Positions 21,926 to 29,505 of a stretch of DNA of 41,809 bases are shown piece by piece. Made by a program: the position numbers and the translations under genes. Source of the stretch: an uncultured Anaerolineales bacterium (GTDB lineage: Bacteria > Chloroflexota > Anaerolineae > Anaerolineales > Villigracilaceae); contig CASGHD010000001.1 in NCBI GenBank assembly GCA_949319575.1, positions 1-41,809 of the forward strand, written 5' to 3'. Numbering within the stretch: position 1 is the stretch's first letter; each line of letters starts with the position of its first letter. The notes below the pieces were generated by a model. That model was given only the letters and a program-made list of their open reading frames with translations, made no database searches and was not told the DNA's origin.

Positions 21926-22290
21926 ATTTTCACCGCGAAGGCTCGCACTGAGCCAGTCGAGGCAGCACAACGCGCGCTAAGAAAATTCAACGCGAATTAC
22001 GCTACTCGGCGAATGACACGAATAAAACCTAAAAAATTCGTAACGACTCAGGCGTGTCGTTGCGAGGAGGCTCTTGCTCGCCTGCCCCGATGTTTTTCGG
22101 GGTCCCGACGAAGCAAGCTCCCGGCGTTGGGGGACTGCTTCGGCAAAACCAAGAGCGCCTCGCAGCGACATGTTCCCAGGCTGAGTGGTTACAAAAATTC
22201 GCGCAATTCGCTCACTCGCGGCATTCGCGTTGAAGAATTTTTCGACTTTGCGATAGACCTATTTATTTTCTTCGCGCGCTTAGCAGTTCA
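21926..22290. repeat. Nested palindromes surrounding MITE-like copy 3
   Basis: The outer words CACCGCGAAGG...GCGCGCTAAG at the left and TTCTTCGCGCGCTTAGCAG at the right resemble a split ACCGCTAAG-family palindrome. Inside them a second pair of arms is inverted: TTCAACGCGAATTACGC (about 21986) and GCATTCGCGTTGAA (about 22221). Between those arms sits the third MITE-like element (22040-22192). The interpretation as stepwise insertion is an inference. Confidence 0.55.
22040..22192. repeat. MITE-like palindromic element, copy 3
   Basis: It runs from GTAACGACTCAGGCGTGTCG to GGCTGAGTGGTTAC. It is the shorter form, lacking the CCTGAGCCTGTCGAAGGG sub-repeat of copy 1 but keeping the CCCCGA/TCGGGG hairpin. 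It lies 144 nt upstream of the acsA start. Confidence 0.85.
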
Positions 22291-22336: not shown

Positions 22337-24292
<1,956 letters not shown>

Positions 24293-24300
24293 AAGAGTAG

Positions 24301-24351
24301 AGAATTGGGGAATTGGGGAATTAGAGATTGGAGATTGGAGACTGGAGATTG
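24301..24351. repeat. Low-complexity GAGATTGGA tandem repeat
   Basis: Tandem near-heptamers of the GAATTGGG / GAGATTGGA type follow the acsA stop. A short stretch of the same type is embedded in the cca-like gene at 16014-16040. Confidence 0.6.
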
Positions 24352-24385
24352 AACAGGCTGAGACGACTCTTCTCAGCCTGTTTTT
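24352..24385 (+). terminator. acsA terminator
   Basis: A 12-bp stem (AACAGGCTGAGA / TCTCAGCCTGTT, 7-nt loop) is followed by TTT and a T-rich run, 59 nt beyond the acsA stop. Confidence 0.8.
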
Positions 24386-24428
24386 GTTTGGTGTGATGTA
24401 AACTGGAAATGCAAGTCGCAATACATGC

Positions 24429-24580
24429 GAACGACTCGGCGATGTCGTTGCGAGGAGGGCTCTTGCTCTTCCCGACGCCTGCCCTGAGCCTGTCGAAGGG
24501 AAGCAATCTCCCGGCATTGGGAGACTGCTTCGGCAAAACCAAGAACGCCTCGCAGCGACATGTTCCGAGGCTGAGCAATT
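24429..24580. repeat. MITE-like palindromic element, copy 4
   Basis: It runs from GAACGACTCGGCGATGTCG to GGCTGAGCAATT. It contains the CCTGAGCCTGTCGAAGGG sub-repeat but lacks the CCCCGA/TCGGGG hairpin. The terminal repeats are more degraded than in copies 1-3. It separates acsA from the retroelement. Confidence 0.8.
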
Positions 24581-24604
24581 CCACCATACAGGAAAATAAT
24601 AATT

Positions 24605-24649
24605 GCCCCGCGATGGTCCCTTATGGAGGATAGATCGCGGGGCTTTTTT
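24605..24649 (+). terminator. Terminator hairpin at the retroelement's edge
   Basis: A 10-bp GC-rich stem (GCCCCGCGAT / ATCGCGGGGC, 19-nt loop) is followed by TTTTTT on the plus strand. On the minus strand it is followed by a weaker T-rich run and may also end the DGR transcript. Confidence 0.7.
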
Positions 24650-24659
24650 ATATTCGGCT

Positions 24660-24803
24660 CTCCTCACGGATTAAGCCGGGGTTTTGCCCGCGCCATCTTT
24701 GAAAGCCTCGGCAACCCAGCCGTAGCCGTGTTGCATTTCTGGCGTAACGCAAGTTGATCGCGAAGCATCCCTGTGGGACAACTTGCGCCACAAACAAAGG
24801 TGT
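24660..24803 (-). ncRNA. DGR spacer RNA downstream of the template repeat
   Basis: On the minus strand this stretch follows the TR directly. It contains a strong hairpin with 9-bp arms (CGCAAGTTG / CAACTTGCG at 24787-24779 and 24756-24748) and a 22-nt loop. In characterised DGRs the RNA just 3' of the TR is structured and serves as the site where the RT-Avd complex primes cDNA synthesis. That role is inferred here from position and structure. No conserved reading frame is present. Confidence 0.55.
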
Positions 24804-24924
24804 GGAAACAACCAACCGAAAACCGATGTTGTTATTACGGTTATCAGGATCGTTGTTGTTGCGATACGCACAGCGCGCGTTGTTTCGATTGTTGTTGAAC
24901 GAACCGCCGCGCAGGACGCGTCTT
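24804..24924 (-). repeat. DGR template repeat (TR)
   Basis: A 121-bp stretch aligning without gaps to 26394-26514 (constant offset 1590). Read in the target's frame it contains twelve AAC/AAT codons in clusters of 3, 2, 3, 1 and 3, the classic adenine-rich design of DGR templates. By manual comparison the copy in the target gene differs at 16 positions, all of them TR adenines in coding sense (16 of about 32), with no change at the other 89 bases. It begins 27 nt after the avd stop codon. Confidence 0.97.
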
Positions 24925-24951
24925 CATCGGGCAGACCCCTCGTAGCGAGTC

Positions 24952-25302
24952 TTACGACCCGGGAACGACGGATTTCATCCAGCCGCCAAGTAAACGACCG
25001 ATTTCAGCCACCATATCAGAGGCATGTTTATACTGACCGTTCGTCATCCACTTCCATTTCTGGCATAAGCGAAGATACAGCCGCGTTTTGAGAAGTTCCG
25101 CGTCGGCGGCGCGCAGTTTTTCCGAACGCTGTACGCCGCGCTGAGCATTCGCTTCGACGATCAATTCTTGGAAGTTGAGCGCACAAGCCTGCAACCGCTT
25201 CGTGATGATGAACCGCTGGCTTTTCGGAAAATCCATTGTCAGCGGAATCAACCACGAAACAAAATCGTACGAGCGCGTAAAGATAACCATTTCATCAGAC
25301 AT
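24952..25302 (-). CDS. avd: DGR accessory variability determinant, Avd
   Basis: A 116-residue basic, all-helical protein of the Avd / four-helix-bundle (23S rRNA IVP-like) family. SYDFVSWLIPLTMDFPKSQRFIITKRLQACALNFQELIVEANAQR is the characteristic first half, and LRLCQKWKWMTNGQYKHASDMVAEIGRLLGGWMK the second. Avd pentamers bind the RT and the DGR RNA and are needed for mutagenic cDNA synthesis. The start is ATG 25302, with GGGAGAA upstream and an 8-nt overlap with the RT stop. The longer frame to 25365 lies within the RT gene and is not used. The TR follows 27 nt downstream. Confidence 0.9.
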   Translation of the reverse strand: MSDEMVIFTRSYDFVSWLIPLTMDFPKSQRFIITKRLQACALNFQELIVEANAQRGVQRSEKLRAADAELLKTRLYLRLCQKWKWMTNGQYKHASDMVAEIGRLLGGWMKSVVPGS

Positions 25303-26344
25303 AGGTTTCTCCCAATATATTTGATTTTCCCAAGATCGCTCTGCGCAAGCCCCATGTATCGCCATAGCGCAGGTGATTGACCCAACCCTGCACGGAGGCT
25401 TTGAGCGTTTCTGTGGAAGCCGTGCGCAGGAGTTGTTTCAGCTTTCTTTGGTACGCAATTCCCTTCTCGCGTTTTAACAGCCGCTTTTCGGGGTGGATCA
25501 CAAAACCGAGAAATTTGATCCCATCGGTGACGGGGCGCGGGATGGCGCGTTCTTCATGCAGGGTCAATCGCAAGCGTTTCATTCGTTCGAGGAGGGCGGA
25601 ACGTGAAGCCCACAGCGTTTGTTTATCGTCGGCAAACAGCAGGAAATCATCCACATAGCGAAGATAAGCCCTGCAGGAAAGTTCGCGTTTAACGAATTGA
25701 TCGAACCGGTCGAGGTAACAATTCGCCCACCATTGCGAGGTGAGGTTGCCGATCGGCAAGCCCCGTGGACGATGGATTGCAAATAAATCATCGCCTGCAA
25801 AATAGACCATCGCGTATTCTTCCGAAAGCACGCCTTCGCCGCTCGCTAGAATCCTTTCGATCAGCCACAGCGCGCTGTCGTCGGGCAGCATGCCTTTCAG
25901 GGTATCTTTCAGCAAGGCATGGTCAATGCTCGGAAAAAACTGCTTCACGTCGCATTGCAGAACATATTTGTATCGTCGCGCCAGCCGTTGACACTCATCC
26001 AGCGCGCGGTGCGTGCCTTTGCCGACGCGGTTGGCGTAACTCGTGGGGATAAAACGTTTTTCAAAGTACAGAGTAGTTATATTGCACAGCGCATGATGCA
26101 CGACACGATCACGAAAGGGGGCGGCGGAGATCAATCGTTTTTTTGGTTCGTGGATATGGAAACTCCGATATTTCCCGGGCGAGTAACTTTTATTTTCGAG
26201 TTCCGATTGCAGAGCAAGTAGGTTGTCCGCGAGGAGGTATTCGAACTGCGCCGTGGCTTGCCTGCCTCTTTTCCCGCGCGAGGCATTTTTATAGGCAAGG
26301 GTCAGGTTATCCCAATCGCAAAGTTGCTCTTGTATATTTATCAT
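25295..26344 (-). CDS. DGR reverse transcriptase
   Basis: A 349-residue stand-alone reverse transcriptase. Seen in order: an N-terminal WDNLTLAYKNASRGKRGR, KKRLISAAPFRDRVVHHAL, motif 3 LQCDVKQFFPSIDH with catalytic Asp 132, motif 4 GLPIGNLTSQWWAN (195-208), motif 5 YVDD (230-233), and the GIKFLGFVIHP thumb-side motif. The SQ ending of motif 4, instead of the SP of group II intron and retron enzymes, is the hallmark of the DGR clade. There is no maturase or endonuclease domain. It would copy the TR RNA with errors at adenine. It is located between the target gene and avd in one minus-strand unit. Confidence 0.97.
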   Translation of the reverse strand: MINIQEQLCDWDNLTLAYKNASRGKRGRQATAQFEYLLADNLLALQSELENKSYSPGKYRSFHIHEPKKRLISAAPFRDRVVHHALCNITTLYFEKRFIPTSYANRVGKGTHRALDECQRLARRYKYVLQCDVKQFFPSIDHALLKDTLKGMLPDDSALWLIERILASGEGVLSEEYAMVYFAGDDLFAIHRPRGLPIGNLTSQWWANCYLDRFDQFVKRELSCRAYLRYVDDFLLFADDKQTLWASRSALLERMKRLRLTLHEERAIPRPVTDGIKFLGFVIHPEKRLLKREKGIAYQRKLKQLLRTASTETLKASVQGWVNHLRYGDTWGLRRAILGKSNILGETYV

Positions 26345-26390
26345 AGAGTCAGAGTTTCAGAGTTCAGAGATTCAGATTTCAGAGATGTGA
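26345..26390. repeat. CAGAGTTCAGAGATT tandem words after VR
   Basis: Short near-tandem words of the type TCAGAGTTCAGAGATTCAGA lie between the VR (target gene 3' end) and the RT start. The stretch overlaps the last codons of the target. It could act as the downstream boundary element for homing, but no clear cruciform is seen. Confidence 0.5.
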
Positions 26391-28598
26391 TGGGGAAACA
26401 ACCAACCGAAAACCGATGTGGTTAAGACGGAAATCAGGATCGTAGAAGCTGCGATACGCACAGCGCGCGATGTATCGATTGCCGCTGAACGAACCGCCGC
26501 GCAGGACGCGACTGTTTCCCGTTTGTGGACCTTTCGGATTCAACACAGGTGTGCTGGTGCGGCTCTTGTATTCCGAATCACTGAACCAATCATTACACCA
26601 CTCCCAGACGTTTCCTACCATATCGGCGCAACCATAAGGCGAGTCGCCGCCGAGGGAAGAGTATGCGCCAACTGGCGTTGTACCTCCTTTCCTTCCTTCT
26701 CCTGAATTGCATTTGTTCGAGTCGAATTCGTTTCCCCAGGGCCACTCGTTGCCATACGCGCCGCGCGCGGCTTTCTCCCATTCGGCTTCGGTGGGCAGGT
26801 GCAGTAACAAATCGCCCAGATCACTCTTGAAGGTTTCGTTGTACCACTTGCAATATTCCATAGCGTCGGCCCACGAAACATTCACTACGGGATGATCTTT
26901 CTTTTTCTGCCAATCAGAAACTGGATGTTTCTTCTTGCCTAAAAATTCGGCGTATTGTTCATTCGTCAAAATAAACTTCGCCATCCAATAATCGTAGTTG
27001 ATCTCGACTGTATGTTGGGGCTTTTCATCATCGGAAGCCAATTCATTATCATCCTTGCTCCCCATCACAAACCTGCCCTTTGGCACGCGCACGAAGCGAA
27101 TGCCGCCAATTTCGGTTTGGTTCATCTCGTTCAACCGTTCGGTGTTGATTGCCCGCTTAAGCACAACCTCTTCTTCTGCAATATCTGCGCCTACGCCATA
27201 AATCGCTTCTTCCAGCGATCCTGGAACCTGAACTTGTTCCTCCACAGGCAGCTTGACCGGCTCAGGTTTCGGCGGAGGCGCGGTCATGTAGATCATCGAA
27301 TCGAGCGCGTCGGGCGTGAATTCACCGCTGAACGAGATCTGCTTCAACACTTTTCGCAAGCGGCGCGAGTCGTCGTCTTCGTAATCGGCAAACGAGCCGC
27401 GTACCGCATCCTTTTCCTCCTGATTTCCATTTTGCCATTTCAAAGCATCGAGAACGAAATTATGTCGAATGGACTTGTCATCGAGTTTCGTCACCTGCCC
27501 CACAAATTTAGCGGGCGCGGCGCGCATCAATGCCTGCCAGCATATAAAATCGTCGCGGTTCACGCCTTTGGCTTGCTCTGAATTCACTGCCATAAACCAT
27601 TGCAAGTTCAAATCGTTGATCACGTTCTTCACGCGGCGCGGGTTCACTTCCGCGGCGGCGACCAGCGCGCCCCAGCGTTTGAGCATGGCTTCGTCCACTT
27701 TGGTTTTGTCCTGCGTTTTCAGATAATCTTCCATCGCCTTTTCAACGATGGGCGGCAGATCAAAGCGCAGTTGAATGATCTTTTCGAGATAGTCCTTCGC
27801 GCCTTCGCCGATGATACCTTCGTTTTTGTAATGAGTTTCCACGGCGGCGCGCACGATGCGCGTGTCTGCGCCTAGCACAAAGACACATCCGCTTTTATCG
27901 AGGAACAGTTTGATCGCTTCGAGGGTTTGAACGGTTTTGGCGGGCAGGCAACGATCCAAATCGTCAATGAAAATGACCAGTGTTCCATTCCCAGTCCAAC
28001 TTTTCAGTAAAGCCTCAAATGCCTCATTGAAATAATCGAAAAAGGCGGTGTGCTGTTTTATAGGCGATTGTTCCTGAGATTTATTCGGGTCGAGTTTGAA
28101 TTTGAAGGTCGCGCCCAACCCTCCAAAACTGGCTTCAAAGGCGTTGAACATCATGGCAATCACATCGTAAGACGGCTGGTTCGGGTCGCCAAACCACGCC
28201 TTAATCTTGTTGATAAACCCATCTCTCTGCATGGCTTGAAGGATCACACGCACGAGCGCGACCAGCAATTCATCTTCGTCGTTGTACTTCCACGCGTCGA
28301 ACCAGACCGTTTTGCAAGCGCGGAATTTGTTTTCCTCATCTTCGGCAAAACGATGTTTGCCTTTGCCATCTATTCCTTTAGGGTGATCCAACATATCCTT
28401 CACGCGCAACAACAGGGATGTTTTCCCCGACCCCCACGCGCCGTTAATTCCGATGGCGAGCGGCGTTTCGGTGTTCGGGCTGGCGATCAGCCGCGCGAAG
28501 GTGGCGGCGAAATCGTCGAAGTGAAAATCTGCCCGCTTCGCGCCGGTCAGCGGGGCGTCGTGCAGAACTTCGGGAGTTTGGTATTTTCGCTTTGGCAT
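26379..28598 (-). CDS. DGR target: KAP P-loop NTPase with FGE-like variable domain
   Basis: A 739-residue protein. Residues about 20-430 form a KAP-family NTPase: Walker A GAWGSGKT (53-60), the FDAWKYNDEDELLVAL block, and Walker B LVIFIDDLDRC (207-217). A Pro-rich linker (about 438-462) leads to a formylglycine-generating-enzyme-like/C-type-lectin fold (about 495-735) with MGSKDDNELASDDEKPQHTV, LPTEAEWEKAARG, GNVWEWCNDWF and RVLRGGSF. The last 45 residues lie in the VR. Variable positions read from the TR are 705-707, 709, 710, 717-719, 723 and 725-727. There are no predicted membrane segments. GAGGAG precedes ATG 28598. It is probably an intracellular sensor whose binding face is diversified; the NTPase would act as switch or effector (inference). 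Confidence 0.93.
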   Translation of the reverse strand: MPKRKYQTPEVLHDAPLTGAKRADFHFDDFAATFARLIASPNTETPLAIGINGAWGSGKTSLLLRVKDMLDHPKGIDGKGKHRFAEDEENKFRACKTVWFDAWKYNDEDELLVALVRVILQAMQRDGFINKIKAWFGDPNQPSYDVIAMMFNAFEASFGGLGATFKFKLDPNKSQEQSPIKQHTAFFDYFNEAFEALLKSWTGNGTLVIFIDDLDRCLPAKTVQTLEAIKLFLDKSGCVFVLGADTRIVRAAVETHYKNEGIIGEGAKDYLEKIIQLRFDLPPIVEKAMEDYLKTQDKTKVDEAMLKRWGALVAAAEVNPRRVKNVINDLNLQWFMAVNSEQAKGVNRDDFICWQALMRAAPAKFVGQVTKLDDKSIRHNFVLDALKWQNGNQEEKDAVRGSFADYEDDDSRRLRKVLKQISFSGEFTPDALDSMIYMTAPPPKPEPVKLPVEEQVQVPGSLEEAIYGVGADIAEEEVVLKRAINTERLNEMNQTEIGGIRFVRVPKGRFVMGSKDDNELASDDEKPQHTVEINYDYWMAKFILTNEQYAEFLGKKKHPVSDWQKKKDHPVVNVSWADAMEYCKWYNETFKSDLGDLLLHLPTEAEWEKAARGAYGNEWPWGNEFDSNKCNSGEGRKGGTTPVGAYSSLGGDSPYGCADMVGNVWEWCNDWFSDSEYKSRTSTPVLNPKGPQTGNSRVLRGGSFSGNRYIARCAYRSFYDPDFRLNHIGFRLVVSPSHL
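26394..26514 (-). repeat. DGR variable repeat (VR)
   Basis: The diversified copy of the TR, at the 3' end of the target gene. Ten of the twelve TR Asn codons are changed: to Ser, Gly, Tyr, Ile, Ser, Phe, Tyr, Phe, Leu and His. Two (707 and 726) remain Asn. The conserved right-hand end in coding sense (TTTTCGGTTGGTTGTTTCC) is identical in TR and VR and is the likely initiation-of-mutagenic-homing region. The VR sequence ends about 13 nt before the target stop codon. Confidence 0.97.
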
Positions 28599-28688
28599 GG
28601 GTCTCCTCGCGCTTTTTTCCCGTCAATGCGAGCGACCGCTAGTCGAAACACAAGCAGTCAAGACCGGAGAATTGGCGCCGAAAAATTG

Positions 28689-29180
28689 CTACTCTCCGAT
28701 TTCGGAGAGAATGGCTTTTGCCAATTGTTCATTAATATAAAAGCCCGCATTGGTTTGCAATATCTCAAGAATTTCTCTGAGTGAATTGATTTCACCCGCT
28801 TGCTTTGCCCGGACCAAAACCCCAAGTATGCCAATCGGCGCAAGCCCCATAGTTTTGGCGATGAGTCTGCCTTCGCGTTCATCCATCAAGACGACTTTGA
28901 CCCCCAACTCCAGCGCAAGAGCAATGGCTTCGGCTTCACCGTCATCGAGTTCGCGTTTCAACGCGCGCGTTATTTGGTCGTTTTGCAATTCCACCCTGCG
29001 CAACCAACCGTCCTCCAGAGCCCGACGAATTTTATCCGCGCCGGGCAAATCCGAATCAACTTTTAGCTCCGCCAGGACCGCAGGCGGGATGACAACTTCC
29101 CCAAACTGTTGTCGCAGTAAATCCAAACGACCGATCGCCGCCAGATTTAGCGCCGGCGACGTATCACTGACGACCAGCAT
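28689..29180 (-). CDS. DUF3368 PIN-like toxin
   Basis: A 163-residue protein of the DUF3368 PIN-like family. The N-terminal VVSDTSPALNLAAIGRLDLL carries the first Asp, ELDDGEAEAIALALELG the central acidic cluster, and VVLMDEREGRLIAKTMGL the later Asp pair. This fold is predicted to cleave RNA with a metal ion. It overlaps the upstream antitoxin by 17 nt. It ends 90 nt before the start of the DGR target gene on the same strand. Confidence 0.85.
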   Translation of the reverse strand: MLVVSDTSPALNLAAIGRLDLLRQQFGEVVIPPAVLAELKVDSDLPGADKIRRALEDGWLRRVELQNDQITRALKRELDDGEAEAIALALELGVKVVLMDEREGRLIAKTMGLAPIGILGVLVRAKQAGEINSLREILEILQTNAGFYINEQLAKAILSEIGE

Positions 29181-29418
29181 ATTCGAGGTCGTCCTTTAAT
29201 TCCTCTTCAGTGTAATGACGCGGAATGCCTCGCCTGCCGAGCGCCATACCAAACTCGAATTTGCTCAAGCCGCTTAACTGACGCGATTTGCCAAAGGAAA
29301 GAATGCTCTGAGCGTACAGCGTAACCGCCAGCTCAACCAACACGCGGCGTTCCTGTTCGCCCGCCGGCAGGCGCATCGCTTGCGCGACAGCATCGGGAAT
29401 TTCCAAATGGATAGCCAT
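29164..29418 (-). CDS. UPF0175-family antitoxin
   Basis: An 84-residue UPF0175 protein (MAIHLEIPDAVAQAMRLP... FGKSRQLSGLSKFEFGMALGRRGIPRHYTEEELKDDL). The central helix-turn-helix-like region and the terminal acidic tail are typical; UPF0175 plus DUF3368 is an established toxin-antitoxin pair. The start is ATG 29418, with GGAG 7 nt upstream; the six extra upstream residues in the longer frame lie before that site. It is first gene of the minus-strand run that continues into the DUF3368 gene and perhaps the retroelement. Confidence 0.85.
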   Translation of the reverse strand: MAIHLEIPDAVAQAMRLPAGEQERRVLVELAVTLYAQSILSFGKSRQLSGLSKFEFGMALGRRGIPRHYTEEELKDDLEYAGRQ

Positions 29419-29499
29419 GGTATGCTCCTGCGTCAATTATAAACGTATTTACACCGGACTTATAACAAAACTGGCAAACCACACCGAACTGCCTCACAG

Positions 29500-29505
29500 T
29501 ATAAT
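29500..29505 (+). promoter_or_regulatory. -10 box of a probably leaderless DUF1684 gene
   Basis: A perfect TATAAT ends exactly 7 nt before ATG 29513. No ribosome site is present. Confidence 0.55.

Follow-up and report, generated by a model that had tools for sequence, protein, structure and literature searches.

A complete diversity-generating retroelement with a KAP NTPase-joined target in an Anaerolineales genome, and the conserved RNA that follows its template repeat

Does the DNA considered here hold a device that rewrites part of one of the cell's own genes, is this device still at work, and what might the rewritten protein be for? The window, by which we mean the whole stretch analysed, is 41,809 nucleotides of an uncultured Anaerolineales bacterium (contig CASGHD010000001.1). 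An earlier note, made from its letters alone, had placed there a diversity-generating retroelement (DGR), an element in which mutated complementary DNA (cDNA) of a template repeat (TR) is carried to a variable repeat (VR). The minus-strand unit at 24605-28598 is a complete, apparently intact DGR of known kind, and the Chloroflexota host that the note had proposed is borne out. We hold with great confidence that the whole is best explained as a chromosomal, cellular Chloroflexota DGR that diversifies a domain of the formylglycine-generating enzyme (FGE)/C-type-lectin type joined to a KAP NTPase. It would thereby offer a clean and complete case of its kind, in a genome with four full-length DGR-type reverse transcriptases (RTs).

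The element and its adenine-directed repeats

Read along the minus strand, the parts follow one another as target gene with its VR, RT, avd, TR, spacer RNA and a terminator-like hairpin; the single strand and the order of the first four parts are those that the earlier note had given, and the open frames are intact, in line with its view that every part looked so. The target gene (26379-28598; 739 amino acids) is separated by 34 bases from the RT gene (25295-26344; 349 amino acids), the product of which matches RVT_1 (E=4e-17) and phrog_1423 'Reverse transcriptase' (E=1.7e-104) and contains the motifs GLPIGNLTSQ, with SQ in motif 4, and YVDD, from which a DGR-type RT had rightly been read. Assignment to the retron, DRT or group II types was rejected, the matches lying below the NCBIfam cut-offs. 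The presence of the accessory variability determinant, Avd, is likewise confirmed (24952-25302) by NF033474 DivGenRetAVD, at 93.3 bits for a cut-off of 80, by PF22296 bAvd and by phrog_3206. Its frame is open from 25365, the first ATG, and its start is most likely 25302, overlapping the end of the RT gene by 8 bases. The TR (24801-24923) is followed by the spacer RNA (24650-24744) and by the hairpin (24605-24643; stem GCCCCGCGAT / ATCGCGGGGC, ten pairs in the fold), which would close the unit. Because the spacer RNA ends at 24650 and the hairpin extends from 24643 to 24605, the DGR, correctly located by the note, runs slightly past the 24660 where the latter had made it start.

The VR (26391-26513) covers codons 696-736 of the 739 of the target, hence at its 3' end, as claimed, and within its C-type-lectin-type (FGE-sulfatase) domain. 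A general repeat finder reports TR and VR as a gapless direct repeat of 123 nucleotides, 1590 nucleotides apart and 87% identical; the TR had been given as 121, and the outermost codons of the repeat as aligned both carry a mismatch. All 16 bases that differ among the 123 are adenines in the TR, replaced in the VR by T (9), G (4) or C (3); such a placement has a hypergeometric probability of 2.5e-11, and none of the 90 other sites differs. Twelve codons of the TR are AAC or AAT, and 14 of their 24 adenines are altered in the VR. Only through the first codon, AGA, can a stop codon be reached, and the potential proteins number about 10^17.8 if all adenines vary, or 10^14.1 from AAY codons alone. 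The same contrast appears in a collection of 66 loci, 12 from whole genomes (that of the window included) and 54 from a scan of species genomes: pooled over the 41 loci with a TR/VR pair, 651 of 1178 adenine sites differ for 20 of 3218 others, counts that are biased towards this result because the pair finder used there, unlike the general repeat finder used for the window, penalises mismatches at other bases. A DNA search of the genome itself with the TR and spacer revealed no second target; the 20 places listed are the TR and VR of this and of sibling DGRs, or else matches of at most about 42 bases.

The DGR of Bordetella phage BPP-1 resembles that of the window in its SQ-motif RT, in differences restricted to adenine (17 of 17 in BPP-1) and in a spacer directly 3' of the TR, while it differs in order (mtd-avd-TR-brt) and in an RT that is 36% identical. 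A single transcript probably spans all parts from the target to the spacer. By analogy with BPP-1 and other DGRs, we may picture cDNA synthesis and homing as follows. The spacer RNA would recruit RT and Avd, and the RT would copy the TR RNA, misincorporating opposite adenines, after which the cDNA would take the place of the VR towards the 3' end of the target, so that up to 12 AAY codons of the FGE/C-type-lectin domain would change while the scaffold stayed constant.

Has the VR been rewritten in this lineage? The genome contains at least three further full-length DGR-type RTs, on contigs C175 (67% identical to that of the window), C35 (61%) and C103 (53%), and contig C151 ends with an additional piece of an RT. 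Between the window and its nearest relative, locus L056, the TRs are distinguished by 15 sites other than adenine, and each VR fits its own TR at all 15; with C175 there are 16 such sites, again with a perfect fit of each VR to its own TR, and the VR of the window matches the TR of C175 at none of them. It follows that the VR was renewed from its own TR after these lineages had separated, and the pattern, as read from the sequences, is that of concerted evolution of TR and VR with respect to both L056 and C175. Furthermore, in RT, Avd and target, third codon positions differ between the window and L056 at two to four times the frequency of first or second ones. Concerted evolution, third-position excess and intact frames lend indirect support to a DGR that is probably active. 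An element that has recently lost its activity, with homing stopped in parts that still look sound, is the best placed of the alternatives, yet it is an unlikely one. There is decay at related loci, the target frame being interrupted in L058 and split in L045, and related genomes contain cassettes devoid of an RT; against this stand the absence of any non-adenine difference between TR and VR in the window, while 15 such sites separate its TR from that of L056, and the intact appearance of RT, Avd, target, spacer RNA and hairpin alike.

The target and the owner of the element

At a Pfam threshold of E<=0.001 the target comprises a KAP_NTPase domain (residues 27-331; 5e-46), an FGE-sulfatase domain (residues 502-733; 7.8e-57) and a weak AAA_16 match; no NACHT or effector domain was found at that threshold, and the composition is not that of an antiviral STAND/NACHT sensor, with its effector at the N terminus and its sensor at the C terminus. 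The sequence of the FGE domain retrieves from the PDB a series of FGEs and a DGR target, Treponema denticola variable protein 1 (2y3c; E=4e-15), while a sequence search of the PDB at E<=0.01 finds no relative of the KAP half. Where the bacterial FGE 6s07 reads GGSFLCHESYC the target reads GGSFSGNRYI, and the two cysteines of LCHESYC, which we take to be catalytic, align with G706 and I710, both of them AAC codons in the TR and neither a cysteine in the target. For this reason the target is unlikely to be an enzyme of the FGE type, and a role in making formylglycine is disfavoured.

Since the variable domain is joined to a KAP NTPase, and by analogy with the NTPase-C-type-lectin targets of Doré et al. 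(2024; PMC10907252), we see the target as most likely a sensor switch, in which variable ligand binding would alter the state of the NTPase; that this would possibly serve a defence or conflict pathway is a guess. In that article, KAP NTPases are named in passing as DGR targets and the role of DGRs with NTPase targets is itself called untested. The window provides a concrete case for the still untested idea of DGRs as adaptive sensors of bacteria. The clade 5D cellular DGRs described there are like that of the window, if described features rather than RT branching are compared: the VR lies in a C-type-lectin/FGE domain attached to an NTPase, a genome has several DGRs, filamentous Chloroflexi are among the hosts, and repeats resembling miniature inverted-repeat transposable elements occur near the loci; they commonly have two targets, whereas one was found at the present locus. 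In the VMAP-ternary systems of Kaur et al. (2020; PMC7159879), which are putative conflict systems, a DGR likewise diversifies an FGS (FGE) domain, in most cases as part of a fusion with the vWA component of MoxR-vWA systems, whereas the window has a KAP NTPase and partner genes were not recognised. The T. denticola protein is a DGR target of the same FGE/C-type-lectin type, and we take it to be without a KAP NTPase, unlike ours.

Some points tell against the explanation as a whole. No effector was recognised, the neighbours scanned (DUF3368, UPF0175, DUF1684, acs and an FAD oxidoreductase) having no obvious link with the target; the neighbours of the related KAP-FGE genes of L056 and L146 look different by eye; and an AlphaFold model of the target, built on an alignment of five rows, is too poor (mean pLDDT 50.7) to tell whether the variable residues are exposed. 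The target was also considered as QatA and other proteins, with NCBIfam scores far below the cut-offs of those models, and PADLOC gave partial matches to QatA, PDC-S20 and PifA in a table that has no cut-offs; a named defence system is therefore not assigned. A variable domain that binds ligands at the cell surface or in adhesion, instead of sensing within the cell, is somewhat less likely still than a loss of activity. Many DGR targets are surface ligand binders, and Mtd of BPP-1 is annotated as mediating attachment; in the present case the variable domain shares its chain with a KAP NTPase, no N-terminal signal peptide was seen by eye, and the sibling targets of the same genome are NACHT-FGE proteins for C175 and C103 and a KAP-FGE protein for C151 (none was seen for C35, the RT of which is near a contig end). 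Other KAP-FGE genes are found at L056 (KAP part 79% identical), L061, L071 and L146 (54%). At L052 (7193-9022) and L051 (7798-9429), related genes of DGR loci combine the same FGE domain not with an NTPase but with a TIR domain. The DUF3368 and UPF0175 genes adjoin immediately upstream of the target, at 28689-29436 on the minus strand, presumably as a toxin-antitoxin-like pair.

That the DGR would be borne by a prophage or a plasmid, as DGR-type RTs can be, is most improbable, the nearest flanking genes scanned being acs and the FAD oxidoreductase, the best RT identity among the matches listed being 37% for phages and 46% for plasmids against 74% in Chloroflexota genomes, and one pattern-seeded scan of viral_contigs having found no relative. 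In a tree of 61 RTs, rooted at midpoint and with long phage branches, the RT of the window groups with those of L056, L057 and L058 (support 100/99), all within a group rich in Chloroflexota; three cyanobacterial RTs branch outside this group, and the phage RTs lie more distant still. The genome G007, of the same genus, has an RT 69% identical, and 'Chloroflexi bacterium CFX6' (SZPG01000034.1) one 68% identical. The scan of 84,980 species genomes produced 54 RT loci, 45 of them Chloroflexota by title, a count that takes in Roseilinea, Aquidulcis and Caldilineaceae; the other nine, with titles such as Myxococcales, Nitrospirales and Halieaceae, may be transfers or misplaced contigs. Gene order is fluid: among the 41 loci with TR and VR, 19 have VR-RT-avd-TR, as in the window, 14 have VR-avd-TR-RT, two have VR-TR-RT-avd and six another order. 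A term search of the text of Roux et al. (2021) returned no occurrence of Chloroflexi or Chloroflexota.

The spacer RNA

The structured spacer that had been suspected after the TR is not only structured (the fold of 24800-24590 has z=-3.9 against dinucleotide shuffles, none of 200 being as good), it is also conserved and covarying. Most relatives have in common after the TR a sequence that starts with about GCCRGAAAUGC and ends with about AAUAY, and the RNA is built of an outer stem GCC/GGC, a covarying hairpin (helix 2), a 3' hairpin and an AATA end. RNAalifold proposes these three helices for 31 sequences, and 11 of the 15 pairs have at least one sequence in which both partners are changed; standard pairs occupy 93.8% of the cells, for 72.9% after shuffling and 29-46% with one side shifted. 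All 500 shuffles are exceeded by four of five measures, and the fifth, pairs changed on both sides (11, shuffle mean 9.1), was reached by 9 of the 500. The 31 sequences were chosen by a pattern in which CC[AG]G[AT]A and CGAGG are constant, and for this reason the invariance of the outer stem is partly by construction; L068, which the pattern had also picked up, was omitted for its unread bases.

The RNA model built on this set, R1, matches the window at 75.6 bits (E=8.5e-14), the window being one of its own training sequences, and at E<=0.016 finds 51 of the 66 sources, including 20 that had no part in its training. At least nine of the 15 sources without a match are contigs cut off within the RT or shortly after it; weak extra matches occur elsewhere in L095 and L082 (E=0.51 and 0.59). 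In the genome itself R1 finds C1, C175, C103 and, doubtfully, C24 (E=1.4), and misses C35, a contig that matches at E=9e-6 when searched as L042. A second set of 25 sequences, aligned by MAFFT without the model, again yields the outer stem and helix 2 by RNAalifold, with changes on both sides in nine of nine pairs; the 3' hairpin was not recovered by RNAalifold in this set, and a separate test of that hairpin is biased upwards in that it picks the 5' start by best pairing. As its members were found by the model from the first set, the second leans towards that model: it consists of 16 of the 20 untrained matches (one as L156, the contig of L082; L049, L068, L099 and L106 omitted) and of nine sequences from class-wide hits (L151, L152 and L153 omitted).

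The RNA keeps its place 3' of the TR when gene order changes, starting 6-101 bases after the TR end in the 38 of 48 listed loci that have a TR. Between TR end and spacer RNA, variable hairpins are seen by eye in the window (24800-24745) and in L061, L062, L063, L078, L079 and L096; the stretch therefore seems to tolerate insertions. The spacer RNA lies on the strand opposite to the RT in L082/L156 (the same contig), L155, L099 and L106, and L099 has a single TR with VR-like copies on both strands. A search of 24000-29500 against Rfam at E up to 1 gave no credible match to the spacer RNA; the one weak hit, to Ocean-VII on the other strand, was rejected, with E=0.3 and 16.6 bits where the gathering score is 53.5. 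R1 did not match the spacers of BPP-1, Nostoc, Microcystis and Prosthecochloris, the best hit (E=0.23) being elsewhere in the Microcystis locus; by eye, the ends of the BPP-1 and cyanobacterial spacers are alike: CCUG, a hairpin, AAAA. Judged by titles and opening lines of abstracts, none of the papers listed apart from PMC12875486 bears on a conserved DGR spacer RNA, and we do not claim that the fold is unpublished.

Cassettes devoid of a reverse transcriptase, and neighbouring repeats

Applied to 199 genomes of the class, R1 gives 40 hits at E<=0.001. For 29 of these, the contig also has an RT hit (E<=1e-30) at a distance of no more than about 1 kb, in the same orientation in 27 cases and in the opposite one in two. 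Two of the remaining 11, L144 and L150, are within 500 bases of a contig end. Three others, L145, L146 and L149, have an FGE target with VR, a TR and the spacer, and tblastn found neither RT nor Avd within about 5 kb. Their mismatches between TR and VR fall again mainly on adenine: 16 and one other in L145, 15 and one other, then seven and two others, in the two pieces of L146, and 12 with no other in L149. L147 and L153 retain avd, the latter with a short RT stub as well (22 adenine mismatches and one other; 17 and one other), L151 has a weaker pair (10 and eight at adenine, three and three others), and no TR/VR pair was found in L148, L152 and L154. The target of L146 is a KAP-FGE protein related to that of the window; two open reading frames downstream of this cassette resemble an AbiE pair by eye.

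These adenine-biased differences suggest, as far as sequences can tell, that the cassettes were recently acted upon in trans or have recently lost their RT. Of the three genomes from which L145, L146 and L149 come, G201 and G019 show an RT hit in another place and G052 has none at E<=1e-30, so that action in trans is disfavoured in G052, provided that its assembly does not simply lack the RT. The RT-less type is already known, since Doré et al. describe loci with a missing RT, termed 'degenerate'; what the analysis adds is the conserved covarying spacer RNA, and the RT-less cassettes that it marks. We propose tentatively, with somewhat more doubt than belief, that the spacer is a defined family of DGR RNA that moves with the TR through changes of order and strand, suffices to mark non-autonomous cassettes (target, VR, TR and spacer, without RT and Avd) that another DGR of the cell diversifies in trans, and has a 3' end of the form CCUG, hairpin, AAAA in common with the cyanobacterial and BPP-1 spacers. 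The model provides a route to TRs, RT-less ones included, that is independent of the RT, and a comparative structure, itself open to testing, for the RNA expected to start cDNA synthesis.

Finally, a dispersed repeat of about 105 bases lies right beside the DGR (24470-24583) and recurs in the window at 64-167 and 22110-22185. The best 40 of 249 candidates in the genome are for the most part 93-97% identical over the core, and 17 of these 40 copies are within 200 bases of the first base of their contig. At L056, an open reading frame resembles by eye a REP-associated transposase.

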